Of a DNA stretch of 64,000 bases, positions 215 to 18,650 are shown piece after piece. Source of the stretch: Microbacterium sp. lyk4-40-TSB-66 (GTDB lineage Bacteria; Actinomycetota; Actinomycetes; Actinomycetales; Microbacteriaceae); assembly GCF_030209475.1 (NCBI RefSeq), contig NZ_JARVRW010000002.1, positions 1 to 64,000 of the forward strand, written 5' to 3'. Made by a program: the position numbers and the translations under genes. The notes beneath the pieces were generated by a model. The model was not told the origin of the DNA. It did no database searches and worked only from the letters and a program-made list of their open reading frames with translations. How positions within the stretch are numbered: position 1 is the first letter of the stretch; the number at the start of each line of letters is the position of its first letter.

Positions 215-619
215 TCAGTGCGTACGGCGCAGCAGTTCGAGCACGGCGAGCGCATAAGCGTCGGCCGGCGCCGGGTGATCGAACACCAGCGTCGCCCCGC
301 CGATCGAGATCTCGACCTCGTAGGTGTCGGACAGCCGGCGGAGCGAGCGGAACGTCGCCCGCAGCAGCTCGCGCAACTGCGACTCGGACGGCAGCCAGAG
401 CGCGTCCTCGGTCGCGACGGAATCCAGAGCCCACTCGGTCGTGCCGTTGAAGGCGAGGATGCGTCCGGTCGGATAGTCGCGAGGCTCGATGGTCATGTCG
501 CTCACCGTGAAGACGTCGGCCTCGAACTCCGGCTCATCCAGCTGGAAGCGGTCGCCGGATCGCGGATGCCACACGAGTCCCGCCGCGCGGAGCGCCTGAG
601 CCATCTCGGTCGAGATCAT
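215..619 (-). CDS. Conserved hypothetical protein, 134 aa
   Basis: A small soluble protein with no membrane segment, no cysteine and no nucleotide-binding motif. Its sequence is regular and globular (VFTVSDMTIEP, FNGTTEWALDSV, then a helical C-terminal half), and I cannot assign a function. Similar actinobacterial proteins sometimes carry the label CpaE, but nothing here looks like a pilus ATPase. I start it at 619 because CAGAAT (627-632 on the minus strand) is followed by exactly seven bases and then this ATG, the geometry of a leaderless mRNA; an in-frame ATG nine bases upstream is the alternative. It is divergent from the hydrolase gene at 691. Confidence 0.7.
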   Translation of the reverse strand: MISTEMAQALRAAGLVWHPRSGDRFQLDEPEFEADVFTVSDMTIEPRDYPTGRILAFNGTTEWALDSVATEDALWLPSESQLRELLRATFRSLRRLSDTYEVEISIGGATLVFDHPAPADAYALAVLELLRRTH

Positions 620-632
620 GGCATCCATTCTG
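620..632 (-). promoter_or_regulatory. Leaderless-type -10 box CAGAAT plus GGATGCC spacer
   Basis: On the minus strand CAGAAT is followed by GGATGCC and then the ATG at 619. The same AGAAT-GGATGCC-ATG string precedes the genes at 691 and 1698. The first base of the hexamer deviates from TANNNT and no good -35 is visible. Confidence 0.45.
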
Positions 633-677
633 GGGGCGATCCGCCGCCGCGGGTCCGCGCACCCCGTCTCGCGACGG

Positions 678-690
678 AAGAATGGATGCC
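678..690 (+). promoter_or_regulatory. Leaderless-type -10 box AAGAAT plus GGATGCC spacer
   Basis: AAGAAT (678-683), then GGATGCC (684-690), then ATG at 691. This is the second of three identical spacer and start arrangements within 1.1 kb. Confidence 0.45.
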
Positions 691-1443
691 ATGCCCGCAC
701 CCGTGACCCTCCCCCGCCTGTCGTGGGGCTCCCCCGGCGCCCCTCGCGTGCTGCTCGCCCATGGCCTCGGTTCGGACGGCGCCCTCATGTGGCGGTACGG
801 CACCGCCCTGGCCGATGCGGGCTGGCACGCGGTGGCGGTCGACCTTCGCGGTCACGGCGTCGCACCACGCGCCCTGGACTACACCCTCGCCGCGTACGCC
901 GCCGACCTCGTCGCGACGACCCCGGAGGGCAACGGCCCGTGGGACGCCGTGGTCGGACACTCGCTGGGCGGCGCCGCGGCGACGATCGCGGCGGCGGGCG
1001 GGGCCGGGTGGACGCGGCGACTCATCCTGATCGACCCGGCCATCGCCCTGTCGGACGACGACCGCGAGATCGTGCGGGTGAGCCAGGAGCAGGCGTTCGC
1101 CGAACCGAGCATCGAGGCGGTACGGGCGGCGCACCCCGAGTGGCATCCGATCGATGTGGAGTTGAAGGCCCGCGCCACGCGGCGCGCGAGCCGCTGGGCG
1201 GTCGAGCAGACGAGCCTGCAGAACGCCGAGTGGGATGTGCGGGACGCGGCGGCCGCGCTGGAGGTCCCCACCCACGTGATCGGCGCCGACCCGGCGGTGC
1301 ATTCGATCTTCACGGGCGACCTCGCCGCCGAGGTGCTGCGCAACACGATGGTCACGATGCGTGTCATCGCGGGCGCCGGGCACTCCCCGCACCGGGATCG
1401 GCCCGAGGCGGCGGTCGCGGCTCTGCTCGACGCGCTGGGCTGA
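691..1443 (+). CDS. Alpha/beta hydrolase fold protein, 250 aa
   Basis: A cytoplasmic alpha/beta hydrolase of unknown substrate. The oxyanion-hole HG is at residues 24-25 (AHGLGSDG), the nucleophile elbow GHSLGG places Ser91, and the catalytic His is near residue 229 (AGHSPHRDRP). The length is normal for the family. The ATG at 691 is chosen over the in-frame ATG at 682 because it sits seven bases after an AAGAAT -10-like box. The neighbours give no metabolic hint. It could be an esterase, a lipase-like enzyme or a C-C hydrolase. Confidence 0.88.
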   Translation: MPAPVTLPRLSWGSPGAPRVLLAHGLGSDGALMWRYGTALADAGWHAVAVDLRGHGVAPRALDYTLAAYAADLVATTPEGNGPWDAVVGHSLGGAAATIAAAGGAGWTRRLILIDPAIALSDDDREIVRVSQEQAFAEPSIEAVRAAHPEWHPIDVELKARATRRASRWAVEQTSLQNAEWDVRDAAAALEVPTHVIGADPAVHSIFTGDLAAEVLRNTMVTMRVIAGAGHSPHRDRPEAAVAALLDALG

Positions 1444-1684
1444 GCGCCCCGGGCTGAGCGCGCTGGGCTGAGCGCCGTGGGTTGAGCGCGCGGCGCGCTT
1501 GTAGGGCACGCGAAGCGGGTGCGCGGCCGGCGATCAGCCCCCGGCCCGACGCGTCGCGTCTCGCACGAGCACCCGGATGTCGCAGAAACGTCCGGATCCC
1601 GCAGCGAGGCGCCCCCATCCTGCGAGCAAGTCGACCTCCTGCGAGGCCGCTGTCACCCCCGGGCCCGATGTCGGCGGTCCCGAG

Positions 1685-1697
1685 CAGAATGGATGCC
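1685..1697 (+). promoter_or_regulatory. Leaderless-type -10 box CAGAAT plus GGATGCC spacer
   Basis: CAGAAT (1685-1690), GGATGCC (1691-1697), ATG at 1698: the third copy of the arrangement. It decides the start of the acyl-CoA dehydrogenase. Confidence 0.45.
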
Positions 1698-2858
1698 ATG
1701 ACCTCGTTCGATCCGGCTCGGTATCTGCCCGACGATCTCCTCGCGCGCATCCACGAGCGGGCGGCGGTGCACGACCGCGAGAACACCTTCCCTCACGACG
1801 ACCTCGACGAGCTGCGCGCGGCGGGGTATCTCGGCATCCTCGTTCCGGAGGCCGCCGGGGGCGCGGGTCTGAGCCTCGCCGAGGCGTCGTTGCTCCAGCA
1901 GCGGCTGGCGGGCGCGGCCCCGGCGACGGCGCTCGCGGTCAACATGCACCTCGTGTGGACGGGCGTCGCCAAGGTGCTGCGCGACCGCGGCATCGACGAC
2001 CTCGCCTTCGTCGAGGAGGCCGCAGCGGCCGGCGACGTGTTCGCCTTCGGCATCAGCGAAGCGGGCAACGACCTCGTGCTGTTCGGCAGCGACACGGTCG
2101 CCGAGCCCGATGCGGAGGGCGGGTACACCTTCACGGGCACCAAGATCTTCACCTCGCTGTCCCCCGTGTGGCAGCACCTCGGCGTGCACGGGCTCGACTC
2201 CAGCTCGCCCGACGGACCGAAGATGGTCTTCGCCTTCCTCGACCGCAGCGACGCGGTCGTCACGCGCGACGACTGGGACACGCTCGGCATGCGCGGCACG
2301 CAGAGCCGCACGACCGAGCTCCGCGGGGCACACGCCCCCGCCGAACGTGTCGTCAGACGGATCGACCCCGGCCCGCAACCCGATCCGCTCGTGTTCGGCA
2401 TCTTCGCCGTCTTCGAGATCCTCCTGGCCTCGGTCTACACGGGTGTGGCGCGGCGCGCGCTCGACCTCGCCGTCGAGGCGGCGACCTCGCGGCGGTCGAA
2501 GAAGACGGGCACGACCTACGCGAACGATCCCGACATCCGCTGGAGGGTCGCCGACATGGCTCTGGCCTACGAGGCCCTCCCCCCGCAGCTCGCGTCGCTC
2601 GCGCGCGACGTCGACGACCTCGCCGACCACGGTCCGCGGTGGTTCTCGCTGCTGTCGGGTGTGAAGCACCGCGCGGTCATCACGGCGAAGGACGTCGTCG
2701 ACGACGCGATCCTCGTCGGAGGCGGCGCCGCCTACTTCACCCGCAACGAGCTCAGTCGTCTCTACCGAGACGTGCTCGCCGGCATGTTCCACCCGTCCGA
2801 CGCCGAATCGGCCCACTCGACCGCCGCGTCCGCGTGGCTCGGACCGGTGACGGCCTGA
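1698..2858 (+). CDS. Acyl-CoA dehydrogenase family protein, 386 aa
   Basis: A flavoprotein oxidising an acyl-CoA or related thioester. The order is that of the family: helical N-terminal domain (LVPEAAGGAGLSLAEASLLQQ), beta-barrel middle domain with the FAD/substrate region (FAFGISEAGND, TGTKIFTSLSP, DTLGMRGTQSRT) and a C-terminal helical bundle. The usual catalytic Glu cannot be placed with certainty. The length is normal. The reading frame is open upstream to 1482, but that extension is Arg/Pro-rich and non-family-like; the leaderless -10 box places the start at 1698. The stop overlaps the ATG of the next gene by one base, so the two are probably co-transcribed. Confidence 0.85.
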   Translation: MTSFDPARYLPDDLLARIHERAAVHDRENTFPHDDLDELRAAGYLGILVPEAAGGAGLSLAEASLLQQRLAGAAPATALAVNMHLVWTGVAKVLRDRGIDDLAFVEEAAAAGDVFAFGISEAGNDLVLFGSDTVAEPDAEGGYTFTGTKIFTSLSPVWQHLGVHGLDSSSPDGPKMVFAFLDRSDAVVTRDDWDTLGMRGTQSRTTELRGAHAPAERVVRRIDPGPQPDPLVFGIFAVFEILLASVYTGVARRALDLAVEAATSRRSKKTGTTYANDPDIRWRVADMALAYEALPPQLASLARDVDDLADHGPRWFSLLSGVKHRAVITAKDVVDDAILVGGGAAYFTRNELSRLYRDVLAGMFHPSDAESAHSTAASAWLGPVTA

Positions 2859-4132
2859 TGGCCCGCACGGCGACGGCGGCACTGAGCCCCGCCGACCAGG
2901 AGCGCCGTCGCGCTCTCCGCGTGATGAAGGGCGTCGCGTTGGGCGCCCTGCTCGGCATGGCGATCGTGTTCGCGATCTCGTTCTCGCTGCAGCGCGAGGT
3001 CGAGTGGTTGCAGTACGTCCGCGCGGCCGCCGAGGGCGGCATGGTCGGTGCCCTCGCCGACTGGTTCGCGGTCACCGCACTCTTCCGGCACCCCCTCGGG
3101 CTGCCGATTCCGCACACGGCGATCATCCCCCGACGCAAGGACGAGATCGGTCGCCAGCTGGGCGAGTTCGTCGAGACGAACTTCCTCGAGGGTGACGTCG
3201 TGCGGGCCAAGCTCGAGTCCACGCCCCTCTCGGCGCGCGCGGGTGCCTGGCTCGCCGAGCCCTCGCACGCCGATCGCGTCGCCGCCGAGGCCGCCACGCT
3301 GGCATCGAGCATCCTCACCGCCCTCGACGACGACGACGTGCAGGGCCTCATCGAAGACCTCGCGCGCGAGCACCTGCTGTCGCCCGATTGGGGCCCGTCG
3401 ATCGGCGGATGGCTCCAGCGGGTCGTCGACTCCGGCGCCCATCACGGCGCGGTCGATCTCGCCCTCGACAACATCGCGGTGTGGCTCGGCAACAACCGCG
3501 ACACCTTCCAGGGTCTCGTGTCGCGGCGTCTTCCGGCGTGGGTGCCGGGAGTCGCCACCCGCCTCGTCGACGACACCGTGTACCGCGAGGCCGTCCAGTT
3601 CGTCGACGCCGTCCGCGCCGATCCGCGACACCAGGCGCGCGGCGCCATCGACGGCTACCTCTCGCGACTCGCCGACAACCTCCAGAACGACCCGGCCACC
3701 ATGGTGCGCCTCGAAGAGGCGAAAGCGGCCGTCTTCGACAGCCCACGGGTGCGCCAGCTCGCCGCCGACGCCTGGAACACCGCGAAGACGGGGCTCCTGC
3801 GCTCGCTCGCCGACCCCGAGAGCGGGCTGCGGCGACGTGCCTCGGCCGCCCTCGCCGAGGTCGGCGCACGCCTGCAGCGCGACGAGACGCTGCAGAAGCG
3901 CGTGGACGGGTGGGTGACCGACGCGGCCGTCTTCGTCGTCGGACGCTACCGCCACGACATCGCGTCGATCATCACCGACACCGTCGAGCGGTGGGATGCC
4001 GAAGAGACCACCGAGAAGATCGAACTCATGGTCGGCCGCGACCTGCAGTACATCCGCTTGAACGGCACGATCGTCGGAGCCCTCGCCGGCCTGGTGATCT
4101 TCACCGTCGCCCACCTCGTATGGGGCTCATGA
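2858..4132 (+). CDS. DUF445 family membrane protein (YjiN/YheB-like), 424 aa
   Basis: DUF445 proteins are membrane-anchored and of unknown biochemical role. A first membrane helix lies at about residues 24-45 (VALGALLGMAIVFAISFSL), followed by the family signature GALADWFAVTALFRHP. A long, probably extramembrane helical region follows, and a C-terminal helix (GALAGLVIFTVAHLVW) closes the protein. The ATG overlaps the stop of the upstream dehydrogenase (TGATG), and the TGA overlaps a possible ATG of the next reading frame at 4129. Confidence 0.85.
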   Translation: MARTATAALSPADQERRRALRVMKGVALGALLGMAIVFAISFSLQREVEWLQYVRAAAEGGMVGALADWFAVTALFRHPLGLPIPHTAIIPRRKDEIGRQLGEFVETNFLEGDVVRAKLESTPLSARAGAWLAEPSHADRVAAEAATLASSILTALDDDDVQGLIEDLAREHLLSPDWGPSIGGWLQRVVDSGAHHGAVDLALDNIAVWLGNNRDTFQGLVSRRLPAWVPGVATRLVDDTVYREAVQFVDAVRADPRHQARGAIDGYLSRLADNLQNDPATMVRLEEAKAAVFDSPRVRQLAADAWNTAKTGLLRSLADPESGLRRRASAALAEVGARLQRDETLQKRVDGWVTDAAVFVVGRYRHDIASIITDTVERWDAEETTEKIELMVGRDLQYIRLNGTIVGALAGLVIFTVAHLVWGS

Positions 4133-4196
4133 GCGTCGTCGTGGCCGGTAAACGAAGGGCCCCGCGTCGCAACCCCGTGCGCCGCGGGCGGGTGAG

Positions 4197-4202
4197 TACT
4201 CT
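4197..4202 (+). promoter_or_regulatory. Leaderless-type -10 box TACTCT
   Basis: TACTCT is followed by seven bases and then GTG at 4210. This is a full TANNNT-N7-GTG match and argues for the downstream GTG start. Confidence 0.55.
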
Positions 4203-4209
4203 GAGCGTC

Positions 4210-4563
4210 GTGAGCGACGGTTCGGGGACCGTGGAGTCCCTTTTCACCTACGGGGTCCTTCAGACGCCCGACGTGCAACTCGACACATTCGGCCGCCTCC
4301 TCCACGGTGAAGACGACACCCTGCCCGCCTTCCGCCTCGACGACGGAGAGAGCGGCGACGAGCGGGCCGCACCGCCCGCGCCCGCCCACCGACGCCGCGT
4401 CCTGCGCCACACCGGCGACCCGCGAGACCGTGTCTTCGGCCAGGTCGTGCGCCTGAGCCCCGACGAACTCGACGCGGCCGATGAATACCTGATGTCGGGA
4501 TCGCGCCGCATCTCGGTCGTCCTGACGAGCGGTCTGAGCGCCTGGGTCTACGTGGGCGCATGA
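4210..4563 (+). CDS. Gamma-glutamylcyclotransferase-like (AIG2/GGCT fold) protein, 117 aa
   Basis: A small protein of the cyclotransferase fold. The signature FTYGVLQTPDVQ near the N-terminus matches the YGxL substrate-loop motif, and QVVRLSPDELDAADEYL matches the region that carries the family's acidic catalytic residue, here D/E-rich but not exactly placed. Substrate is unknown. Starting at GTG 4210 puts the YGxL motif near residue 10, as usual; starting at the upstream ATG 4129 would add 27 basic residues. The stop overlaps the ATG of the next gene (ATGA). Confidence 0.75.
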   Translation: MSDGSGTVESLFTYGVLQTPDVQLDTFGRLLHGEDDTLPAFRLDDGESGDERAAPPAPAHRRRVLRHTGDPRDRVFGQVVRLSPDELDAADEYLMSGSRRISVVLTSGLSAWVYVGA

Positions 4564-5597
4564 GCGCGCTCTCGGTGGATCCGCTCTGGCCGCGTGCGGG
4601 GGCCTGGCCCACGCCGACCGGCGAAGAGGCACCGGATGCCGTCCTGCTCGGCGTCCCCGCGTGGCGCACCTCGCTGTCGCCGACCGGCGCGGGCGAAACC
4701 CCCGCCGCGGTGCGGGAGGCCCTTCGCCGGTACTCCCCCACGATCATGGGCCCACCGCCGCTCGACCTGAACGCCGCGCTCCGCATCGCCGACGCCGGCG
4801 ACGTGGAGGAGCCCGACGGGCGCGAGGGCGAGGCGCGCGTTCGGGCCGCCGTGGACGAGCTCGCTTCGGCCCGGCTGCTGATCGCCCTCGGCGGCGACAA
4901 CTCCGCGACCTATGCCGTGGCACAGGGTCGCCGGGCAGAGGGGCTGATCACCCTCGACGCCCACTTCGACCTGCGCGACGGAGAATCCAACGGCTCGCCC
5001 GTTCGGCGACTGCTCGCGGAAGGACTCGATCCCCGGCGCGTCGTGCAGATCGGCATCGCCGACTTCGCCAACTCGGCGGCGTACGCCCGACGCGCGCTCG
5101 ACGCCGGCATTACGGTCATCACACTCGACGAGGTCCGTCGCCGCGGCGTCGACGAAGTCGTCACCGCCGCCCTGCGAATCGCGGGAGGCGGCGCGGACGG
5201 TCTCCGCGGCGCGGGGGGCCACGGCGCCGACGTCCGCAGCGAGGGAGACGGCGATGCACCGGATCCCCGCCGCGCCGCAGCGCCCCTCACGGTCCACGGC
5301 GACACCGCCCCGCCCCCCGCACCCGGCCGACCGGGTGCGCCCGGCGGCATCCATCTCGACATCGACGTCGACGTGTGCGATCGCTCCGTGGCGCCCGGCT
5401 GCCCGGCCAGCGTTCCGGGCGGGCTCGCCGCGTGGGAGCTGCGGGCACTGGTGCGCGGCATCGCCCGCGACCCGCTCGTCGCCAGCGCCGACATCGTCGA
5501 GGTGGATGCCACGGCCGACACCGCCGACGCCCGCACCGTACGACTCGCCGCGCTCTGCGTTCTCGAACTCCTCGCTGGATTGGCGGAAAGACCATGA
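4560..5597 (+). CDS. hutG: Arginase/agmatinase-fold hydrolase, probable formimidoylglutamase, 345 aa
   Basis: Likely hydrolyses N-formimidoyl-L-glutamate to glutamate and formamide, the last step of the hut pathway whose other enzymes lie 3 kb downstream. Manganese motifs are GGDN (residues 111-114), DAHFD (133-137) and DIDVDVCDRSVAPG (from 267), which resembles actinobacterial HutG-type enzymes more than classic agmatinases. The usual His of GGDH is Asn here. About 50 Gly/Ala/Pro-rich residues (roughly 210-262) are inserted just before the last metal motif. It overlaps both neighbours by four bases. The fold is certain; the substrate is inferred from family resemblance and the nearby hut operon. 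Confidence 0.72.
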   Translation: MSALSVDPLWPRAGAWPTPTGEEAPDAVLLGVPAWRTSLSPTGAGETPAAVREALRRYSPTIMGPPPLDLNAALRIADAGDVEEPDGREGEARVRAAVDELASARLLIALGGDNSATYAVAQGRRAEGLITLDAHFDLRDGESNGSPVRRLLAEGLDPRRVVQIGIADFANSAAYARRALDAGITVITLDEVRRRGVDEVVTAALRIAGGGADGLRGAGGHGADVRSEGDGDAPDPRRAAAPLTVHGDTAPPPAPGRPGAPGGIHLDIDVDVCDRSVAPGCPASVPGGLAAWELRALVRGIARDPLVASADIVEVDATADTADARTVRLAALCVLELLAGLAERP

Positions 5598-6058
5598 TCC
5601 AACTCATCCTCGCGCGCCACGCGAAGTCCGACTGGGCCGACGAAGGCCTCGACGATCACGACCGTCCCCTCAACGACCGCGGGCGGCGCGATGCGCCCAC
5701 GATCGCGCGAACCGTCCAACGCGCGGGGGTGCGCCCCGCCGTGATCCTGTCGAGCACGGCCCTCCGCGCGCGGCAGACGGCCGAGGCGTTCGCGGAGACG
5801 TTCGAGGTCGAGGTCATCGAGAAGCCCGAGCTCTATCTCGCCGCACCCGACGGTCTGCTCGACGCCGCCCGGGCCGGCGGTGTCGACGAGGTGATGGTGG
5901 TCGCACACGATCCCGGCATGACCTCGCTCGTCTCGCGACTGGCCGGTCGCGACGAACGCATGGTGACCTGCGCCGTGGCCGTCTTCACCTGGCACGACGG
6001 CACCTGGGACGACGTCGACGCGACACCGCCCGACGAGTTCGACCTCTACACGCCCTAG
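5594..6058 (+). CDS. SixA-type histidine phosphatase family protein, 154 aa
   Basis: A phosphohistidine phosphatase-like enzyme of the branch-2/SixA histidine phosphatase group. The catalytic motif RHAKSDW lies at residues 8-14 with His9 as nucleophile, STALRARQTAEAF supplies the second Arg, and VVAHDPGM supplies the second catalytic His. The length is that of SixA proteins. ATG 5594 overlaps the TGA of the upstream gene, so it belongs to the same run of overlapping genes from 4210. It is followed by a strong terminator. Confidence 0.87.
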   Translation: MIQLILARHAKSDWADEGLDDHDRPLNDRGRRDAPTIARTVQRAGVRPAVILSSTALRARQTAEAFAETFEVEVIEKPELYLAAPDGLLDAARAGGVDEVMVVAHDPGMTSLVSRLAGRDERMVTCAVAVFTWHDGTWDDVDATPPDEFDLYTP

Positions 6059-6075
6059 GCGCCCGCACCGCCGCC

Positions 6076-6115
6076 ACGGTGCGTCCCGGACAGGCCGCCG
6101 CCCGGGACGCACCGT
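6076..6115. terminator. 14-bp perfect hairpin
   Basis: A perfect 14-bp stem (6076-6089 with 6102-6115, arm ACGGTGCGTCCCGG) with a 12-base loop directly after the SixA-like gene. There is no U-run, as is usual in high-GC actinobacteria. Confidence 0.75.
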
Positions 6116-6312
6116 CGACGCTGACACCACCTTCGGATCCCCCGGTCGCCGCGGGGAATGCGCGTGCGGAATCAGCGTTTCGTCATCCGGCCGACATCTG
6201 CCGGGTCATCGCGGCGAACATTCGTCTGGTAGAACTGTCTGACACCCGACGCGGTCGTCTGTGCCGCGCGGTGACCCCGACGGGCGCATGCGGCGGAACC
6301 TGAGGAACGGTC

Positions 6313-7365: not shown

Positions 7366-7921
7366 TTCGCTGACCCTGCCGCGCACCCGCCGCCGCCGCG
7401 GCTGGGTGATCGCCGTCTCGCTCGTTCTGGCGATGGCCGTCGCGGGACTCGCGATCATGATTCCGGCTTACGTCTACCCCGCCGCCGCCGCGCCGCCCGC
7501 GCGTGCCGACGTCATCTACGTGATCGGCCCTCCCACCGAGGGGCGGATCGCCCTCGCCGAGCGGCTCCGCAGTGAGGGGGTGGCCGACGACCTCCTCATC
7601 TCGGTCCCGTCGGAAGGTGAGCAGTCGGCGGCGAAGCTGAGCGTCTGCCAGGAGCGGTACGTGACCTGCGGGCACCCCGACCCCTTCACGACCGCGGGAG
7701 AGATGGCGCTGCTGAACACACGGTACGGTCCCGAGGCGAGCGCCGTCGTCATCACCTTCACCCCCCACGTGAGCCGGACGCGCTTCATCGCGGCGCAGTG
7801 CGCCGAGGCGCAGGTGACCGTGGTCGACGTGCCGACCTCGCTCGATCTCGGACAGTGGATCTACCAGTTCGCCTACCAGACGGGCGGGTTCGCCAAGGCG
7901 GTCGCCGCCCCCTGCTCCTAG
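7355..7921 (+). CDS. DUF218/YdcF-like membrane-anchored protein, 188 aa
   Basis: One N-terminal membrane helix (about residues 17-40) and an extracytoplasmic domain resembling DUF218 (ElyC/SanA/YdcF) proteins, which act in envelope metabolism. The core strand [19 protein letters not shown] matches the nucleotide-like fold start, and a C-terminal [15 protein letters not shown] region is present. It has four cysteines, two in the CQERYVTC motif. GTG 7355 is the first start that gives a clean signal-anchor; it overlaps the acyltransferase end, which suggests joint function in the envelope. The TAG overlaps the hutI stop by two bases on the other strand. Family assignment is moderate. Confidence 0.68.
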
Positions 7922-9177
7922 GGCCTACCCGCCCCTCGCCACTCCTCGCCGTCCTTCCACACGCGACGCACGAGCGGCACACCGGGTCGGTAGGCGAGGT
8001 GCACGCGCGACGGCGCGTCGAGCAGGACGAGATCGGCCCGCGTCCCGGGCGCGATCACCCCGACGTCCGTGCGGCGAAGCGCCCTCGCGCCGCCCGCGGT
8101 CGACGCCCAGACCGCCTCGGCCGGCGTCATCCCCATCTCGCGCACCGCGAGCGCGATCATCAGCGGCAGGGAGCTGGTGAAGCTCGAGCCCGGATTGCAG
8201 TCGCTGGCGAGGGCGATCGTGACACCGGCGTCCAACAGTCGGCGCGCATCGGGGTAGGGCTGACGCGTCGAGAACTCCACACCCGGGAGCAGGGTGGCCA
8301 CCGTGTCCGATCCGGCGAGCGCCGCGACGTCGTCGTCGGAGAGGAAGGTGCAGTGATCGACCGCGGCGGCTCCGAGGTCGACCGCGAGCCGCACCCCGGG
8401 TCCGAAACCGAGTTGATTGCCGTGCACCCGGATGCCGAGACCCGCCGCCCGACCCGCCTCGAGCACCCTCCGGCACTGATCGGCGGTGAAGGCGCCCTCT
8501 TCGCAGAAGGCATCGATCCACCGCACACGCGACGCGACCGCGCGGAGCATGTCACCCACCACGAGGTCGACGTACGCCTCCGCGCCGCCCGTGTGGTCGG
8601 GGGCGACGACGTGCGCCCCGAGGAAGGTCACCTCGTCGGTCACCTCGGCGGCGAGCCGCGCTAGACGCGCCTCGGTCTCGACGTCGAGACCGTATCCGGT
8701 CTTCACCTCCAGGGTCGTGGTGCCCTGCGCCCGGCATTCCGCGACGAGCGCCGCCAGACGCGTCCGCAGCTCGTCGTCGGTCGCCGCCCGCGTGGCCGCC
8801 ACCGTCGTGCGGATCCCTCCCGCCGCGTACCGCTCCCCCGCCATCCGCGCGGCGAACTCCTCCGCCCGGTCGCCCCCGAAGACGAGGTGGGTGTGGCTGT
8901 CGACGAAGCCAGGAATCACGGCGCGGCCGCCTGCGTCCACGACGCGGACGCGGGCATCGGTGCCGGATGCCGCGGCATCCGGGGCATCGGTCGCCCTGCC
9001 CGTCCACGCGATGCGGCCGTCCCGCACGAGCACCGCGGCGTCGTGGATCGTGCCGCACGGGTCGCCGTCGGCGGCGACGTTGGTCGTCAGCTCGCCGATA
9101 CCGGTCAGCAGGAACGTGTCCGCGGCGCCGACGGAACCGCTCACGGCATCGGCTCCGGTCGGGGCAGGACCGCTCAC
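7918..9177 (-). CDS. hutI: Imidazolonepropionase, 419 aa
   Basis: Hydrolyses 4-imidazolone-5-propanoate to N-formimidoyl-L-glutamate, the third step of histidine degradation. It is an amidohydrolase-fold enzyme: metal-binding HTH in [14 protein letters not shown], then [33 protein letters not shown] and ASDCNPGSS, all in HutI order. The N-terminal 20 residues are variable. GTG 9177 overlaps the hutU stop (GTGA); a second GTG three bases upstream is equally possible. Last gene of the hutHUI operon. Confidence 0.95.
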
Positions 9178-10883
9178 CACATCGGCACCGTGAGACCGCG
9201 TTCGACGGCGACCTCGCGGGCGCGGTCGTAGCCGGCATCCACGTGCCGCATGACCCCGGTGCCGGGGTCGTTGACGAGCACGCGCGCGAGCTTCTCGGCG
9301 GCGAGCTCCGTGCCGTCGGCGACGCAGACCTGACCGGCGTGGATGCTGCGGCCGATGCCGACGCCGCCGCCGTGGTGGATCGACACCCACGACGCCCCGC
9401 TGGCGGTGTTGAGCAGGGCGTTCAGCAGGGGCCAGTCCGCGATGGCATCCGATCCGTCGGCCATCGCCTCGGTCTCGCGGTAGGGCGAGGCGACGGAACC
9501 GGCGTCGAGGTGATCGCGACCGATGACGATGGGACCTGCCAGCTCGCCGGAGGCGACCATCTCGTTGAACTTCAGGCCCGCCAGGTGACGTTCCTTGTAG
9601 CCGAGCCAGCAGATGCGCGCCGGGAGTCCTTCGAAGTTCACCTGCTTTCCGGCCTTGTCGAGCCAGCGGTGAAGGGCGGCATCCTCCGGGAACAGCTCCG
9701 CGACGGCGCGGTCGGTCTTGGCGATGTCGTCCGGGTCGCCCGACAGCGCCACCCAGCGGAACGGTCCCTTCCCCTCCGCGAAGAGGGGGCGGATGTACGC
9801 CGGCACGAAGCCGGGGAACGCGAACGCGCGGTCGTAGCCGCCGAGCTCGGCCTCGCGGCGGATCGAGTTGCCGTAATCGAACACCGCGGCACCGGCATCC
9901 TGGAACTCCACCATCGCCCGCACGTGCGCGGCCATGCTCTCTCGCGAACGCCGGGTGAAGTCCTCGGGGTCGCGCGCGGCCTCGGCCTGCCATTCGTCGA
10001 CCGACACCCCGACGGGCAGGTACGACAGGGGGTCGTGGGCGCTCGTCTGGTCGGTGACGATGTCGATCCGGATGCCGCGCGCCCGCAGTTCCGGGAACAC
10101 CTCGGCCGCGTTGCCCGCGATCCCGACCGACAGTGCCTCACCCGCGTCGCGCGCGGCGCTCACCCGCTCGACGGCCGCATCGAGGTCGTCGGCGACCTCG
10201 TCGAGGTAGCCGTGGGCGACGCGGCGATCGAGGCGCGTGCGATCGACGTCGACGATGAGCACCGCTCCCCCGTTCATCGTGACGGCGAGCGGCTGTGCGC
10301 CGCCCATGCCGCCGCAGCCGGCGGTGAGGGTCAGCGTGCCCGCAAGCGATTCCCGACCCAGAGACGCCGCGACCGCGGCGAACGTCTCGTAGGTGCCCTG
10401 CAGGATTCCCTGCGTGCCGATGTAGATCCACGATCCGGCGGTCATCTGCCCGTACATCGTCAGACCGAGCTCTTCGAGGCGGCGGAACTCGGGCCATGTC
10501 GCCCAGTCGCCCACGAGGTTCGAGTTGGCGATGAGCACGCGCGGTGCCCACTCGTGCGTGCGGAACACCCCCACCGGCTTGCCCGACTGCACGAGCAGCG
10601 TCTCATCGGGCTCCAGCTCGTCGAGGGTGCGCACGATCGCGTCGTACGCGGCCCACGACCGGGCGGCCCGGCCGGTGCCGCCGTAGACGACGAGGTCGTC
10701 GGGACGCTCGGCGACGTCGGGGTCGAGGTTGTTCATCAGCATGCGCTTCGCGGCCTCGGCACCCCAGCTCTTCGCGGTGCGGACGTCGCCGCGCGCGGCG
10801 CGGACGGGCCCACGGGATGCCGGGGCGTCGGCGCCTCCGCCATCGGCGGCGGTCGCGGGCGAGGGGTTCATCGTGTCGGTCAT
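9174..10883 (-). CDS. hutU: Urocanate hydratase, 569 aa
   Basis: Adds water to urocanate to give imidazolonepropionate, with tightly bound NAD+. Diagnostic blocks are [71 protein letters not shown], the NAD-handling region [11 protein letters not shown], and the C-terminal [19 protein letters not shown]. Length is normal; about 35 extra Ala/Gly-rich residues lie at the N-terminus. ATG 10883 has GGAG nine bases upstream. An 86-base gap separates it from hutH, and its stop overlaps hutI. Confidence 0.97.
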
Positions 10884-12523: not shown

Positions 12524-12576
12524 ACGCCGATTCCATCGCGAGGGATGGCCTGCGGCGAGAGGGTTCTGGCATCCTG

Positions 12577-12594: not shown

Positions 12595-13358
12595 ATCCGC
12601 GCCCGCAGGTCCCCGCCGCCGATCAGACGCTGCGGATCCTCTCGCTGCTCGCGCGCCAACCCGGGCCGATGGCGGCGCAATCGATCGCGTCGAGCCTCGG
12701 CATCCCGCGGTCGAGCACGTACCACCTGCTCGCCACGCTCGAGGAGCACGGATACGTCGTGCACCTGCCCGGCGACCGCCGCTGGGGGCTGGGCACGGCC
12801 GCGTTCGAACTGGGCGGCGGATACGCCCGGCAGCAGCCCCTCGCCCGGCTGGGTCGACCGCTGCTGGCGGCGTTGTCGGACCGGGTCGGCGAGTCGGCCC
12901 ACCTCGCCGTGCTGGCGGGACGCGACGTGCTGTACATCGTCGAGGAGCGCGCTCCGCGGCGCCCCGCCCTCGTCACCGATGTCGGCGTGCGCCTGCCCGC
13001 GCACCTCACCGCGACGGGTCGCGCGATGCTGGCCGCCCTCCCCCGCGAGCAGGTTCGGGCATCGTTCCCGGATGCCACGGCGCTGACCCAGCGGCACGGT
13101 TCCGGTCCCGCCACCCCGCGCGCGCTGCGCGAGGTGCTGCGCGAGGTGCGCGCCGCGGGCTTCGCCCGCGAAGACGGCGAGGTCACGCCCGGTTTCCGCT
13201 CCGTCGCCGCCGCCGTGCTCGACCACGCCGGTTGGCCCGCCGCCGCGGTGGCGATCACGTGGCCCTCGGACGGTCCGGAACGGGATGCCACGTCCCTCGC
13301 GGACGCCGCGACCACCACCGCCGCCGAGCTCGCGCGTCGCATCGGCCGCCACGTCTGA
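12585..13358 (+). CDS. IclR family transcriptional regulator, probable hut regulator, 257 aa
   Basis: DNA-binding regulator with an N-terminal winged helix (residues about 10-70; QTLRILSLLARQ, SIASSLGIPRSSTYHLLATLEEHGYV) and a C-terminal IclR effector-binding domain (LGRPLLAALSDRVGESAHLAVL, LPAHLTATGRAMLAALP, AREDGEVTPGFRSVAAAV). Divergent from hutHUI, so it most likely senses a pathway intermediate and controls the operon; this is inference from position. The ATG lies in an 18-base palindrome, which would allow self-repression. Confidence 0.88.
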   Translation: MSDNPRPQVPAADQTLRILSLLARQPGPMAAQSIASSLGIPRSSTYHLLATLEEHGYVVHLPGDRRWGLGTAAFELGGGYARQQPLARLGRPLLAALSDRVGESAHLAVLAGRDVLYIVEERAPRRPALVTDVGVRLPAHLTATGRAMLAALPREQVRASFPDATALTQRHGSGPATPRALREVLREVRAAGFAREDGEVTPGFRSVAAAVLDHAGWPAAAVAITWPSDGPERDATSLADAATTTAAELARRIGRHV

Positions 13359-13410
13359 CGCGCTCCCGCCGGCTCGCCGCACCCGCGCGGCGCTCGGTCC
13401 GCGCGTTCAC

Positions 13411-14077
13411 CCGGTTCGGGCGAGTTCCGCGTCTCACTGGTTCGGGGCGGGGTCCGCCGCTCGGGGCGGGACACCCGCGCGACGGCTCCACCCCAGGCGC
13501 CGCTGCATCCGGTCTCACTGGTTCGGGGCGGATTCCGCCGCTCGGGGCGAGACACCCGCGCCCCAACCCGCCGATCCCGCCCCAAACGCCGCGAAACACC
13601 CCCGCCACGCCACTCCGGGGCACCGAATGTGCACCGGGGCGCGCAGCGACCGCCCCACTGCACAACCCGTGCCCCACTGACCCACGCGCCGCGGCTTCCG
13701 GTCTCACCGGTTCGGGGCGGATACCGCCGCTCGGGGCGAGATACCCGCGCCCCAACCCGCCGATCCCGCCCCAAACACCGCGAAACACCCCCGCTACGCC
13801 ACTCCGGGGCAACGACTGTGCACAGGGGCGCGCAGCGACCGCCCCACTGCACAACCCCTGCCCCACTCACCCACGCGTCGCGGCTTCCGGTCTCACCGGT
13901 TCGGGGCGGATACCGCCACTCGGGGCGAGATACCCGCGCCCCAACCCGCCGATCCCGCCCCAAACGCCGCGAAACACGCCGGAGTTGCCGGTCCGGGGCA
14001 CCGAATGTGCACAGGGGCGCGCAGCGACCGCCCCACTGCACAACCCCTGCCCCAATGACCCACTCGGCGTGCCGCGG
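13411..14077. repeat. Three 189-bp tandem repeats plus partial upstream copies
   Basis: The stretch between the IclR and LacI genes (13359-14141) has no gene I can support. Full units begin at GGTCTCAC at 13511, 13700 and 13889, exactly 189 bases apart; shorter, diverged units begin near 13411 and 13435. Each unit opens with GGTTCGGGGCGGAT and continues with CTCGGGGCGAGA, then CCGCCCC words, then a GCACAGGGGCGCGCAGCGAC block. Because 189 is divisible by three and GC is high, several frames stay open through all copies; I treat these as artefacts. Confidence 0.9.
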
Positions 14078-14141
14078 GATCTCGCCCCTCCGCAGGCCGA
14101 ACGCCGCAGCCCCACCCCGCGGCGCACCGGCGCCCGCGAAC

Positions 14142-15137
14142 TCACCGCACGACGAGTCGCGGCTCCACCAGCACGTGCGCCGTGCCCGCCGCCGCCGCGC
14201 GGGGCGCGACGACCGTGCCGTCGCCCATCAGCAGGTCGAGGGCTCCGGATGCCACCCGCTCGGGCAACTGCTCGACGCTCGAGAGTCCGAGGGCCTCGGC
14301 CGCGGGGGTGTTGTCGAAGCCGACGACGGTGATGTCGGGGCGCCCGGCCAGCGAGGTCGCGAGGTGCGCGCCGATGGCGAGGGAGTCGCTCGCGCAGACG
14401 ATTCCGGTGACCCCCGGGTCGGCGACGAGACCGGCCGCCACGACGTCGCGCGCCGCCGACACGTTCTCCTCGACAATCCACCGCGGCCCCGCGCCCGCGG
14501 TCTCGCGCCAGCCGCGCTCGCGTTCGTCCCCCGTGCCCGACCCGGCGGGCCAGCCGAGGAAGGCGACGTGCCCGCCGCCGCGGGCGAGTGCGTGCGCGGT
14601 CGCGGCCCGCGTTCCCGCCGCACCGTCGACGTCGACCCAGAGGTGCGCCGGTGCTTCGACGTCGTCCTCGCCCCACGGTCGGCCGAACGACACGAACGGG
14701 AGGTTCCGTGCCGTCAGCCACCCGGTGCGGGGGTCGCCGTGGAAGGTGCCGGTGACGACCACGGCATCCACTTCTCCCCCCTCCAGCAGATCGCCGAGCC
14801 GGGCGATCTCCTCCTCGGGCGAACGGGCGGCGTACAGCAGCACGCGCATGTCCCGCTCGCCCGCGCGTTCGGTGAGGGCGTGCACGAAGCGGTCGAGCAC
14901 GACGCCCGAGATGCCGCCGGCGTACGGATCGAGATGGATGCCGATGGTGGAGCTGCGGCGGATCCGCAGCCGACGCGCGGCGGCGTGGGGGCGGTATCCG
15001 AGCTCGGCGATCGCGGCCTCCACCCGGTGCCGCGTGGTCTCGCGCACGATGTCGGGGGTGTTCACGACGTTCGACACGGTCTGCCGCGAGACGCCGGCGA
15101 CACGGGCGACGTCGTCGACGGTGGGCGCCTTCGCCAT
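14142..15137 (-). CDS. LacI family transcriptional regulator, 331 aa
   Basis: Repressor with an N-terminal helix-turn-helix and hinge (TVDDVARVAGVSRQTVSNVVN, then YRPHAAARRL) and a periplasmic-binding-protein-like sensor domain (STIGIHLDPYAGG, GIVCASDSLAIGAHLA, DITVVGFDN). Probably controls the divergent sugar ABC transporter and debranching enzyme. ATG 15137 has GGGAGGGG just upstream. The likely operator is the TTTGAACGTTCAAA palindrome at 15295, inside the promoter region shared with the transporter. Confidence 0.92.
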   Translation of the reverse strand: MAKAPTVDDVARVAGVSRQTVSNVVNTPDIVRETTRHRVEAAIAELGYRPHAAARRLRIRRSSTIGIHLDPYAGGISGVVLDRFVHALTERAGERDMRVLLYAARSPEEEIARLGDLLEGGEVDAVVVTGTFHGDPRTGWLTARNLPFVSFGRPWGEDDVEAPAHLWVDVDGAAGTRAATAHALARGGGHVAFLGWPAGSGTGDERERGWRETAGAGPRWIVEENVSAARDVVAAGLVADPGVTGIVCASDSLAIGAHLATSLAGRPDITVVGFDNTPAAEALGLSSVEQLPERVASGALDLLMGDGTVVAPRAAAAGTAHVLVEPRLVVR

Positions 15138-15251
15138 GTCATCCCCTCCCATCCCGGTCCGTGCGGGACGATGTCGCTCCCGAGTGATCGGCGGCTGCGA
15201 CGGGTCCGGCGCCCGACCACAGACCGTCAGCCTAGGCCGGGCGACAAGCTC

Positions 15252-15281
15252 TTGACATCTGCCGCGACGTGTTCGTACCTT
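15252..15281 (+). promoter_or_regulatory. Sigma-70-type promoter TTGACA-N18-TACCTT
   Basis: TTGACA at 15252-15257 and TACCTT at 15276-15281 are separated by 18 bases. The binding-protein gene starts at 15368 after a GAAGGAGAG ribosome site near 15354. Confidence 0.75.
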
Positions 15282-15294
15282 TGTGGGACCGCCA

Positions 15295-15308
15295 TTTGAA
15301 CGTTCAAA
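15295..15308. promoter_or_regulatory. Perfect palindrome TTTGAACGTTCAAA, probable LacI-family operator
   Basis: A 14-base perfect palindrome with a central CG, typical of LacI/GalR operators, placed 13 bases after the -10 box. Binding here would block transcription of the transporter operon. Confidence 0.75.
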
Positions 15309-15367
15309 CTGGCGGCCCTCCGACCACATGCGGAGGGGTCGCATGCCTCATCGAAGGAGAGAGACAC

Positions 15368-16618
15368 ATGACACGGCACACGCCCGCCCCCCGCACACGC
15401 ACGGCGCTCGCCGCCGGCGCGCTGCTGGCCACCGGAGCCCTGACGCTCACCGCCTGCGGCTCGGGCTTCAACGACACCCCCGGCGAGGGCCAGGCCTCCG
15501 GCAGCGGCAGCCTGAGCATCCTCATCGGTTCCTCGGGCGACGCCGAGACCAAGGCCGTCACCGACGCCGTCGCCGCGTGGAGCGAGCAGTCGGGCGTCGC
15601 GGCCGAGGTGCAGACCGCCAACGACCTGCCCCAGCAGCTCTCGCAGGGCTTCGCCGCCGGCTCCCCGCCCGACCTGTTCTACCTGGCCCCCGAGGCCCTC
15701 GCGGGCTACGCGGCGAACGGTTCGATCGCCGCCTACGGCGACGACCTCGCCAACAAGGACGACTTCTACCCCTCCCTGGTCGACAACTTCACGGTCGACG
15801 GATCCTTCTACTGCGCCCCCAAGGACTTCTCCACGCTGGCGCTGATCATCAACTCCGACCTGTGGACGGCCGCCGGACTCACGGATGCCGACATCCCCAC
15901 GACGTGGGACCAGCTGGCATCCGTCGCCCAGCGTCTGACCACCGACGGGCGCGTCGGCCTCGCCTTCGGCGCCGAGTACCAGCGCGTCGGCGCCTTCATG
16001 GCGCAAGCGGGCGGCGGCCTCGTCACCGACGGGCAGGCCACGGCCGACGGCGCCGAGAACGTCGAGGCGTTGACCTACGTCAAGACGCACCTGAACGACG
16101 GCTCGTTCGCCTTCGCGTCCGATGTCGGCGCGGGCTGGGGCGGAGAGGCGCTCGGCACGCAGAAGGCCGCCATGGTCATCGAGGGCAACTGGATTACCGG
16201 CGCGATGTCGGCCGACTACCCCGACGTGAACTACACCGTCGCCGAGCTCCCCGCCGGCCCCGGCGGCAAGGGCACGCTGCAGTTCACCAACTGCTGGGGC
16301 CTCGCCGCAGACAGCGGGAACCAGGAGCAGGCGCGCGCCCTCGTGGAGTACCTGACCGGCACCGACCAGCAGCTGGCGTTCTCGACCGCCTTCGGCCCGA
16401 TGCCCTCGATCCAGTCCGCGGCCGACGCATGGACGAGCGCGAACCCCGACCTCACGGCGTTCCTCGCCGGAGCGGAGTACGCGCAGTTCCCGCCGAACAT
16501 GGCCGGCGCCGCCGATGTCATCACCGACTTCAACGCGCAGCTCGAGTCGCTGAAGACCGGCGACCCGCAGGCGCTGCTGCAGACGGCGCAGTCCAACCTC
16601 GAGGCGATCGTTCAGTAA
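15368..16618 (+). CDS. Sugar ABC transporter substrate-binding lipoprotein, 416 aa
   Basis: Extracellular solute receptor of a carbohydrate-uptake ABC system (CUT1 type, cluster 1). A basic N-region, hydrophobic segment and lipobox LTAC near residue 29 mark a lipoprotein, followed by a Gly/Ser-rich tether. The mature part is of the extracellular solute-binding family 1 type (LYFLAPEAL-like FYLAPEALAGY, FYCAPKDFSTLALIINSDLW, YVKTHLNDGSFAF, GWGGEALGTQKAAMVIEGNW). The ligand is probably a maltose-like or other oligosaccharide, judged from the debranching enzyme downstream. Confidence 0.93.
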   Translation: MTRHTPAPRTRTALAAGALLATGALTLTACGSGFNDTPGEGQASGSGSLSILIGSSGDAETKAVTDAVAAWSEQSGVAAEVQTANDLPQQLSQGFAAGSPPDLFYLAPEALAGYAANGSIAAYGDDLANKDDFYPSLVDNFTVDGSFYCAPKDFSTLALIINSDLWTAAGLTDADIPTTWDQLASVAQRLTTDGRVGLAFGAEYQRVGAFMAQAGGGLVTDGQATADGAENVEALTYVKTHLNDGSFAFASDVGAGWGGEALGTQKAAMVIEGNWITGAMSADYPDVNYTVAELPAGPGGKGTLQFTNCWGLAADSGNQEQARALVEYLTGTDQQLAFSTAFGPMPSIQSAADAWTSANPDLTAFLAGAEYAQFPPNMAGAADVITDFNAQLESLKTGDPQALLQTAQSNLEAIVQ

Positions 16619-16620
16619 TC

Positions 16621-17736
16621 GTGAGCGCCCTCACCACCGCGCCGCGTCGCGCCGGGTCCCCCTCCTCGGGGATCCGGCGCGGCGAGGCCGCCGCCGGCTG
16701 GCTCTTCACCGCACCTGTCCTCGTCATCCTGGGTGTGTTCCTGCTCGTCCCCGTGCTCATGGCGCTGTGGGTGAGCTTCTCGGACTGGACGGGGCGCGGC
16801 AGCCCCTTCTCGTCGAACGTGAACTTCGTCGGCGTCGACAACTACGCCGCGGTCACGACGGGCGGCGGACTCGCCGAACGCGACTTCGGTACGGCGCTGC
16901 GCAACAACGCCTGGTACGTGCTGCTGGTGGTGCCTCTCCAGACGGCGCTCTCCCTCTTCCTCGCGGTGCTGGTCAATCGCGCGATCCTGCGCGGCCGCGG
17001 GTTCTTCCGCACCGCCTTCTACTTCCCCTCGGTCACCAGTTCCGTGGCGATCACCGTGCTGTGGCTCTTCCTCTTCTCGGCATCCGGTGCCGTCAACGAG
17101 GTGTTGTCGTGGCTCGGCATCAACGGACCGAACTGGTTCAGCGACCCCTCCGGCGTCGTGCACAATCTGCTGGCAGCGATCGGCGTGACCACCGGTCCGG
17201 CGTTCCTCACCGGCAACACCCTGCTCGGCGTCTCGTGGTGGGACTGGCTGGCCGGCCCCTCGGTCGCCATGTCGGCGTTCATCCTCATGGCCGTGTTCAC
17301 CACTTCCGGCACCTTCATGCTGCTCTTCATCGCGGGCCTGCAGAACATCGGCGGCGATGTGCAGGAGGCCGCCATGATGGACGGCGCCAGCGGGTGGCAG
17401 CGCTTCTGGCGGGTCACCCTGCCGCAGCTCAAGCCCGTGCTGTTCACCGTGCTGACCCTGGGCCTCATCGGCACGTGGCAGGTGTTCGACCAGATCTACA
17501 CCGGCACGCAGGGTGGCCCCGGCAAGACCACGCTCACCCCCGCGTACCTCAGCTACTCCTCGGCGTTCTTGTCGCAGCAGTGGGGTCAGGGCGCCGCGAT
17601 CGCCTTCGTGCTCTTCGTCATCATCGTCGCGCTGACGATCCTCCAGCGCTTCGTGCTGCGCGACCGCCCGGTCTCGCGCCGACGCATCCGCGAGTACGAA
17701 GTCCGCGGCACGGCCACGAAGGGAGGCACGCGATGA
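16621..17736 (+). CDS. Sugar ABC transporter permease (MalF type), 371 aa
   Basis: Inner-membrane channel subunit of the CUT1 transporter. About seven hydrophobic helices; the cytoplasmic EAA loop that contacts the ATPase is QEAAMMDGASGWQRFWRVTL. A long extracytoplasmic insertion between helices 3 and 4 (about residues 165-215, SGVVHNLLAAIGVTTGPAFL) is larger than in most MalF-like proteins. GTG start two bases after the binding-protein stop; the end overlaps the second permease by four bases. No ATPase gene lies in the operon, so a shared MsiK-like ATPase encoded elsewhere is likely. Confidence 0.93.
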   Translation: MSALTTAPRRAGSPSSGIRRGEAAAGWLFTAPVLVILGVFLLVPVLMALWVSFSDWTGRGSPFSSNVNFVGVDNYAAVTTGGGLAERDFGTALRNNAWYVLLVVPLQTALSLFLAVLVNRAILRGRGFFRTAFYFPSVTSSVAITVLWLFLFSASGAVNEVLSWLGINGPNWFSDPSGVVHNLLAAIGVTTGPAFLTGNTLLGVSWWDWLAGPSVAMSAFILMAVFTTSGTFMLLFIAGLQNIGGDVQEAAMMDGASGWQRFWRVTLPQLKPVLFTVLTLGLIGTWQVFDQIYTGTQGGPGKTTLTPAYLSYSSAFLSQQWGQGAAIAFVLFVIIVALTILQRFVLRDRPVSRRRIREYEVRGTATKGGTR

Positions 17737-18650
17737 CCGCCACGGCATCCCCGCAGACCACCGTCCTCGCCGAGCAGCGTCTCGACGGGCCCGGCCGCCG
17801 CCCGGCGAAGCACCGCATGTCGCGCAAGGCGCTCGGATGGCAGATCGGCCTGTACGCCCTGCTGATCGTGCTCGCGCTGATCTACATCTATCCGTTCCTC
17901 GTGCAGGTGGCGACGTCTTTCAAGACGGATGCCGCGGCGGCGGCGAATCCCATCTCGCTCCTGCCGCAGACATTCACGTGGGCGGCGTACGAGCGGCTCT
18001 TCCTCAACTCCGACTTCCCGGTGTGGTTCGCCAACTCCGCGGTGGTGACGGTGTTCGTGACGGCGGGCCGGGTGTTCTTCAACTCCCTGGCCGGCTACGC
18101 CCTCGCCCGCCTGCAGTTCCGCGGACGCGGTCTCGTCTTCGCGGGACTCATCGCGGTGATGGCCGTGCCGACCGTCGTGCTGCTGATCCCGAAGTTCCTC
18201 GTGATCAACCAGCTCGGCATCTACGACTCCTACGCGGGCATGATCCTGCCGCTGCTCGTGGACGCCGCGGGCGTGTTCATCATGAAGAACTTCTTCGAGT
18301 CGATTCCCCCGTCGGTCGAGGAGCAGGCGCGCATCGACGGCGCCGGCACATTCCGCATCTTCTGGTCGGTCGTCCTGCCGATGGCGCGGCCCGCTCTCAT
18401 CACGATCGTCATCCTGTCGTTCCAGGGATCGTGGAACGAGCTGAGTCATTTCGTCGTCTCCACCCAGTCGCCCGAACTCACCACCCTGACCAAGGGCGTC
18501 GCCGCCCTCGCGAGCGGACAGCTCAGCCAGGGCAGCCAATTCCCCCTCAAACTCGCGGCCGCGGCCATCATGACGATTCCGGTCGCCGTGGTGTTCTTCA
18601 TCTTCCAGCGCCGCATCATGAACGCCAGCGAAGGAGCAGTCAAAGAATGA
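17733..18650 (+). CDS. Sugar ABC transporter permease (MalG type), 305 aa
   Basis: Second membrane subunit of the transporter. Six predicted helices; the EAA motif reads EEQARIDGAGTFRIFWSVVL. N-terminal 40 residues are polar and cytoplasmic, ending in KALGWQIGLYALLI. ATG overlaps the upstream permease stop (ATGA), and its own stop overlaps the ATG of the debranching enzyme, so the four genes form one tightly coupled operon. Confidence 0.94.
   Translation: MTATASPQTTVLAEQRLDGPGRRPAKHRMSRKALGWQIGLYALLIVLALIYIYPFLVQVATSFKTDAAAAANPISLLPQTFTWAAYERLFLNSDFPVWFANSAVVTVFVTAGRVFFNSLAGYALARLQFRGRGLVFAGLIAVMAVPTVVLLIPKFLVINQLGIYDSYAGMILPLLVDAAGVFIMKNFFESIPPSVEEQARIDGAGTFRIFWSVVLPMARPALITIVILSFQGSWNELSHFVVSTQSPELTTLTKGVAALASGQLSQGSQFPLKLAAAAIMTIPVAVVFFIFQRRIMNASEGAVKE

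Follow-up and report, generated by a model that had tools for sequence, protein, structure and literature searches.

A hard-edged octamer, GGATGCCR, is iterated through the genome of a Microbacterium and gives way to other words among some relatives: a possible DNA uptake sequence

The window analysed here, a stretch of 64,000 nucleotides at positions 1 to 64,000 of contig NZ_JARVRW010000002.1 of Microbacterium sp. lyk4-40-TSB-66 (Microbacteriaceae), carries a dispersed array of the heptamer GGATGCC, which was found on both strands from 564 to 62557. Counting on both strands over the 64 kb gave 123 copies, compared with a mean of 14.7 and a maximum of 25 in 100 dinucleotide-preserving shuffles, which confirmed the over-representation of GGATGCC and its complement GGCATCC claimed in an earlier reading of the same DNA (the original prediction). 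The nine coordinates named in that reading, including the plus-strand copy at 564..570, were correct to within one base; 35 copies were counted between 564 and 17933, where that reading had found 32. The base 3′ of the heptamer was G in 86 copies, A in 32, C in 5 and T in none, so that 118 of the 123 read GGATGCCR, and the word was sharpened to this octamer.

Copies in the window were observed both in predicted genes and between them, singly and in pairs. A convergent pair lies at 8965..8980, inside the predicted gene 7918-9180 (minus strand), and an intergenic inverted pair at 21520..21543, between divergent genes. The two inverted pairs that had been named as terminators are real; they lie at 22731..22754, in a terminator-like hairpin between convergent genes, and at 25991..26036, in a long hairpin 10 bases past the stop codon of gene 24490-25980 (plus strand). 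In addition, three neighbouring predicted gene starts read ATGGATGCCATG, where two potential start codons overlap with the word; these copies are located at 620..626 (minus strand; gene 215-628, minus), 684..690 (plus; gene 682-1443, plus) and 1691..1697 (plus; gene 1689-2858, plus).

The limits of the word were determined in a larger sample, 464 kb of the same contig, with expectations taken from an order-2 Markov model. GGATGCCR occurred 686 times where 68 copies were expected (10.1-fold), and the avoidance by the host that is expected of a restriction site was thus absent. Both pyrimidine forms were at background, GGATGCCC with 32 copies against 30 expected and GGATGCCT with 13 against 18, which makes position 8 (A or G) part of the word, whereas all four bases were tolerated on the 5′ side. 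The 21 one-mismatch neighbours over the first seven positions ranged from 0.54 to 2.14 times their expectation (the lowest values being 0.54, 0.58 and 0.67), and GGATGCCR is therefore a hard-edged word. This sharp specificity, with a one-mismatch shell that is not strongly depleted, argues against a simple mutational bias, and a mutational or mismatch-repair ratchet that depletes near-misses was rejected since the table showed no such depletion. The sharp 8-bp edge suggests protein binding in some form, one of the roles that had been proposed.

In the whole genome the word was counted 2758 and 2780 times on the two strands (5,538 copies, one per 645 bases, approximately 1550 per Mb), compared with 137 and 161 (298) for the same word reversed. 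The reversed word contains CTA/TAG, which is rare in genomes of this kind; it is therefore a low control, and ratios to it overstate the enrichment. Base composition, codon pairs or mutation bias might be suspected of producing the excess as an artefact, since the genome is GC-rich and the word encodes common dipeptides. The codon-preserving shuffle, named beforehand as the test that could refute the claim, was run by permuting synonymous codons 100 times within each of 404 predicted genes (called by a simple codon-score script rather than an annotation pipeline), keeping the proteins and codon usage. The predicted genes of the 464 kb hold 580 of the 686 copies, compared with 115 ± 9 and at most 140 in the shuffles, and the density was slightly higher between genes (1.69 per kb) than in coding sequence (1.43 per kb). 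Three of the six possible readings dominate the coding copies: Asp(GAT)-Ala(GCC) in 232, Gly(GGC)-Ile(ATC) in 158 and Ala(GCA)-Ser(TCC) in 150, with 40 others, so that the predicted use of GAT (Asp) and GCA (Ala) codons holds for the first and third of these readings and fails for the Gly-Ile copies and the remaining 40. Chance and base composition were rejected as the cause by the two kinds of shuffle, and, given also the sharp replacement of the word in 7 of 149 genus genomes described below, an artefact is hardly credible.

Strand and spacing analyses revealed a symmetrical distribution. The two strands of the 464 kb carried 348 and 338 copies, 21 stretches of a complete relative of the same genus carried 276 copies forward and 306 reverse, neither side being consistently richer, and the forward share averaged 0.503 over 150 family genomes. 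Neither the 464 kb nor the 21 stretches, in which dif was not located, showed a strand polarity of the type of FtsK-orienting polar sequences (KOPS) or other segregation signals, and the proposed segregation role thus found no support. Gaps between copies were near-random, with a coefficient of variation of 1.05 and no preferred spacing. Neighbouring copies less than 60 bases apart formed 27 convergent, 16 divergent and 17 tandem pairs. Only 11 inverted pairs in the 464 kb were extragenic, among them the two named as terminators in the original prediction. Convergent genes flank six of the 11; three follow the first gene of a rightward pair, one lies past a leftward gene and one separates divergent genes. 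Four of the pairs that are not between convergent genes lie 3-42 bases past a gene end. Intergenic density followed the gene arrangement, with 2.55 copies per kb between convergent, 1.93 between divergent and 1.24 between tandem genes.

These data also bear on a Chi-like function, in which a helicase-nuclease of the RecBCD, AddAB or AdnAB type would switch from degradation to recombination at the word and dialects would reflect changes of the enzyme. GGATGCCR is like Chi words, which vary between species, in being short, GC-rich, over-represented and lineage-specific; the replacement of words and the turnover of positions described below are also compatible with such a role. Unlike Chi as generally known, however, GGATGCCR is far denser, at one per 645 bases, is paired at putative terminators and has no strand polarity. 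The same two data sets, with replichores roughly defined, showed no orientation bias with replication, and stretches of the complete relative with weak GC skew gave 192 copies on the G-rich strand and 167 on the C-rich strand. A Chi-like site, a class that is listed among over-represented words (PMC4390886), is thus an unlikely explanation.

Among farther relatives the positions of the word turn over while its density is kept. In the four nearest named relatives (82-87% identity over the aligned part), 93 of 135 window sites were kept compared with 1653 of 4965 control words composed of the same letters. In nine farther relatives (75-77%), 14 of 114 sites were kept compared with 1156 of 6044 control words, the same 12-13 sites being compared each time and hence not independent; the loci of these relatives were nevertheless dense in copies of their own. 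The conservation at matched positions that had been asked for was accordingly found among the nearest relatives and lost among the farther ones. Single positions are dispensable and density is what is kept, which speaks against a main role as promoter, terminator or other local regulatory element. The sharp 8-bp edge and the genome-wide spread could be explained if the word were bound by an abundant protein, chromosome-organising or regulatory, that needs thousands of strand-neutral sites. This reading is nonetheless quite unlikely, as positions are not kept in moderately distant species, 580 of 686 copies lie inside genes and the gaps are near-random.

Gene comparison placed the source organism in Microbacterium, the closest glucose-6-phosphate isomerase among those listed (98%) being that of M. 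enclense. The word is spread widely in the family. Among 150 family genomes the ratio of GGATGCCR to the reversed word had a median of 5.1, was at least 5 in 76 and fell below 1.5 in four. In the genus, 128 of 149 genomes contained at least 700 forward copies, while the control word numbered 47-172 per strand. At the level of named loci, copies were dense in most Microbacterium and in one Agromyces locus, intermediate in Cryobacterium, and near background in Arthrobacter, Brevibacterium, Lentzea and one Clavibacter locus. An order-level control of 139 genomes from 19 other families gave ratios mostly between 1 and 3.5, with values up to 7.8 in one family, f4, in which the word was 2-8 times as frequent as its reverse (e.g., genomes G361, G374 and G426). 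GGATGCCR, or its background, may thus extend past the Microbacteriaceae, and its use in family f4 may be independent or ancestral. Two contigs titled Stenotrophomonas maltophilia P13 (L066) and Vibrio cholerae 35D (L090) encode glucose-6-phosphate isomerases that are, respectively, 90 and 79% like that of the source Microbacterium, and they probably represent contamination of those assemblies.

Some relatives that are poor in GGATGCCR carry another word in its place. Twenty such genomes were picked in the genus and 17 yielded a usable 20-kb stretch; 11 of these contained an over-represented word of like build, namely GGATCC in four, GGATGCT in two, GGATGCG in two, and GGAACC, GGATGGC and CCGGATG in one each. 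No replacement word was seen in the other six at the 20-kb depth, and one of these six (G258) was later recognised as carrying GGATCC. Samples of 80 kb, from one genome each, resolved four of the words as octamers: CGGAACCA, a GGAACCA-type word, was counted 83 times against 4.3 expected (G265), GGATGCTG 51 against 2.7 (G287), GGATGCGG 106 against 8.6 (G182) and GGATGGCC 53 against 6.9 (G180). Samples of the same kind gave 149 GGATCC sites against 37.5 (G204) and 101 CCGGATG sites against 25 (G289). The split was clean across the 149 genus genomes, of which seven contained 1336-3607 copies of CGGATCCR per strand and the other 142 contained 78-535. These seven all fall within the nine genomes that have the fewest GGATGCCR copies per Mb, the other two being the GGAACC genome and G236. 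Outside the genus, a family genus without GGATGCCR (g52) gave a hint of GGATCCT, with 16 copies against 2.4 in 40 kb. Together with the shuffles, the genome counts and the codon test, the dialect split supports the proposal of a selected or driven DNA word. As dialects with a common GGA start, the replacement words resemble the uptake sequences of Neisseriaceae and Pasteurellaceae; we take these dialects as the strongest pointer to DNA uptake.

Iterated words with alternates are also known from cyanobacteria, where highly iterated palindromes (HIP) reach 1000-2000 per Mb, are swapped for alternates in some genomes, and an alternate HIP is accompanied by a methyltransferase specific for it, as reported in PMC4390886. 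By analogy, an orphan methyltransferase would mark GGATGCCR, and methyl-directed repair or another methylation-dependent function would accumulate the copies; the density of approximately 1550 per Mb, the alternate words in some relatives and the presence of an orphan methyltransferase in the lineage are all like HIP1. This single-copy beta-class DNA methyltransferase (L228; genome G000, contig C15, 27375-28358, minus strand) has RsrI methylase as its best PDB relative, CcrM being weaker, and no NCBIfam model scored over its cut-off. Protein searches in the 150 family genomes gave strong matches in 135, weak matches in 10 and none in five. Genomes without an ortholog were less enriched (median ratio 3.2, n = 15, compared with 5.5, n = 135; p = 0.009, uncorrected for relatedness or genome reduction). 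Profile searches of 27 genomes with three models, which leave room for some other enzyme, matched PF01555 in 26, PF00145 in 13 and PF02384 in 17, and the main PF01555 protein was the conserved orphan enzyme.

The length of this protein varies in a disordered-looking linker outside its recognition-like region, and that region is almost unchanged across dialects. Same-dialect proteins were not closer than expected (p = 0.51, 12 genomes), and the enzyme was thus rejected as a reader of the dialects. Moreover, the genome with the most GGATGCCR copies (G247) gave no PF01555 or PF00145 match and two PF02384 matches, and no ortholog was found in G070 and G113, both enriched approximately tenfold (G113 being 77% complete). 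Unlike HIP1, GGATGCCR and four of the five replacement words are non-palindromic, GGATCC being the exception, and one-mismatch neighbours are not strongly depleted. A HIP-like system is therefore a doubtful alternative, and of the methylation role put forward in the original prediction there remains the conserved orphan enzyme, set against a recognition-like region that is nearly constant across words and its absence from the matches in G247.

The genes expected for natural transformation were found in the source genome. The gene comEA, encoding SLBB and helix-hairpin-helix domains, adjoins comEC, and the contig of the window contains a compact cluster of tadA, tadBC, flp, tadE and a tadF-like gene beside topA, the tad names resting on sequence features, position and a PF00437 search. 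That search gave one match over the cut-off in the source genome, the tad-type ATPase. It also covered 19 other genomes, and the topA-linked region was read in 18 of these relatives: tadA, tadBC and flp were present in all 18, and tadE and tadF were each matched in 17, one of the tadE matches being flp once more. In 17 of the 18 topA adjoined the cluster, and the last region ends at a contig end. A tad cluster other than the topA-linked one was carried by 14 of 20 stretches retrieved. According to PMC4322843, natural transformation of Micrococcus luteus requires tad clusters together with comEA/comEC, and PMC10257627 reports that a Microbacterium in activated sludge was transformed by a free plasmid. 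Of the 149 genus genomes 147 had a comEC match, as had 148 of the 150 family genomes (three of the four genomes that lacked one are less than 85% complete), and the match was partial or split in five genus genomes (G181, G238, G250, G289 and G291); because comEC is nearly universal, it was dropped as an uninformative correlate of the word.

On the analogy with DNA uptake sequences (DUS) and uptake signal sequences (USS), and given the conserved transformation genes, we put at about an even chance that GGATGCCR serves this Microbacterium as its DNA uptake, or self-recognition, sequence. Its cells, when competent, would bind free double-stranded DNA carrying the word better than other DNA and would thereby prefer DNA of their own kind, the word being read by a protein on the cell surface that belongs to the tad pilus/ComEA apparatus. 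Repeated uptake and recombination would favour word-carrying alleles, so that copies would accumulate by molecular drive where proteins tolerate them, and inverted pairs would be reused as transcription terminators. After a change in the specificity of the reader the old word would decay and a new one accumulate, giving rise to dialects. The broader proposal, that the Microbacteriaceae possess an uptake code of their own, in which the tad-pilus/ComEA apparatus reads GGA-initial words of 6-8 bp in at least six dialects within one genus, evolved independently of the Neisseria and Haemophilus systems and without precedent in a Gram-positive lineage, falls a little short of an even chance in our estimate.

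Six Microbacterium phages, whose host dialects were not verified, contained 52 copies of GGATGCCR in 229 kb against 32.7 expected, and four of the six were at background (Min1 7 observed against 7.4 expected, SanaSana 4 against 5.4, Quenya 6 against 5.7 and Lynlen 7 against 5.6). Within the 464 kb, the excess over local expectation rose with GC content, from 8.6-fold in the lowest quartile to 12.3-fold in the highest, and among the long gaps between copies are one with RHS/YD-repeat-like sequence and another with a D12-type methylase-like frame (both named by eye). Taken together, the phage counts, the GC trend and the long gaps give mild support to the uptake reading. Two observations stand beside these. 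On contig C10 of the source genome, positions 315-323 kb are poor in the motif, lower in GC and carry several RHS/YD-repeat-like frames, and by eye they are likely an acquired island. In phages of M. foliorum (L248-L251, approximately 40 kb each) GGATCC is nearly absent, as if avoided, with 0-4 sites, while Min1 has 26.

Candidate readers were sought by regressing the distance between proteins on the distance between TopA proteins and permuting for closeness of same-dialect pairs. The distances of such pairs fell below expectation for tadA (p = 0.01) and comEA (p = 0.03, 9 genomes), with tadE at p = 0.07 and tadF at p = 0.09, and no effect of dialect was seen for tadBC (p = 0.60) or flp (p = 0.17). 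These values are uncorrected for sister species or for the seven tests, and since sister species share dialects in the sample and seven proteins were tested, the association is a hint only; no candidate reader follows the dialects convincingly.

This lack of a convincing reader is one of several results that weigh against uptake. The gene comEC is present with and without the word and showed no correlation with it, and the lower enrichment of family genomes that lack the orphan methyltransferase counts on the same side. Exclusion of one word by another is complete only between GGATCC and GGATGCC: the genomes with GGATGCGG, GGATGCTG and GGATGGCC keep GGATGCCR at approximately 4-6 times the reversed word (per strand, 783/727 compared with 116/144 in G182, 500/558 compared with 122/164 in G287 and 462/366 compared with 106/76 in G180). 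Low genomes without a clear replacement word were also observed, namely G208, G185, G244 and G236 in 60 kb each and G296 in 20 kb. Among the phages, Efeko (L252, 17.5 kb) is itself enriched, with 14 copies against 2.5 expected, and Clayda5 mildly so (14 against 6.1), the five phages other than Efeko ranging from 0.7 to 2.3 times expectation. Finally, no record of uptake or transformation was found for the source organism.

The word shares several features with known uptake systems. In Neisseriaceae, eight DUS dialects share a CTG core and inverted pairs stand at terminators, according to PMC3630211; GGATGCCR is similar in its genome-wide excess, its frequent location in genes, its dialects with a short common core and its inverted pairs at putative terminators, whereas it differs in being an unrelated 8-bp sequence of a Gram-positive family whose pilus is of the tad type, in which no counterpart of ComP was identified. 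The USS of Pasteurellaceae likewise number at least approximately 1000 copies, are common in terminator hairpins and have species variants (as described in PMC1852404 and PMC5031613); their sequence, phylum and envelope type are different, and the copies of GGATGCCR are more numerous. PMC5031613 describes self-recognising DNA uptake for Pasteurellaceae and Neisseriaceae only. Among the matches listed in searches of open-licence papers, none dealt with a word of this sort in Microbacteriaceae; a term search of the main text of a survey of abundant bacterial octamers (PMC2843746) returned no mention of GGATGCC, Leifsonia or Clavibacter, and that of a paper on M. luteus competence (PMC8467076) no mention of uptake sequences or Microbacterium. 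If GGATGCCR does direct uptake, it would be the first uptake word outside the two known Gram-negative families and a third, Gram-positive origin of such words; with many dialects in one culturable genus, the origin of uptake words by drive, the joint change of a receptor and its thousands of sites in the genome, and sequence reading by a tad pilus would become testable. The word, its edge, its symmetry, its range in the family, its dialects and the turnover of its sites are solid facts, and even if the uptake reading is wrong, a family-wide iterated word that is replaced between species calls for an explanation and offers a precise assay.

Two further features lie apart from the word. The window contains, at 22773-23111 and 23976-24317, genes for short proteins starting with MAKKHITQVIDDLDG and MKHITHLVDDLDG, respectively, which by eye resemble Lsr2-type DNA-binding proteins. 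A second over-represented word, the AT-rich CGTGTTTATGCG, had 27 TGTTTATG matches in the 464 kb, none of them in predicted genes. Its sites on contig C10 (L012-L017) are located at 287.8-288.2, 338.8, 357.0-357.2, 382.7-384.6 and 403.0 kb, often as small arrays in both orientations, with 19-base steps at two places and three of them repeated at 169-base steps, and it is a candidate intergenic repeat element or binding-site array.

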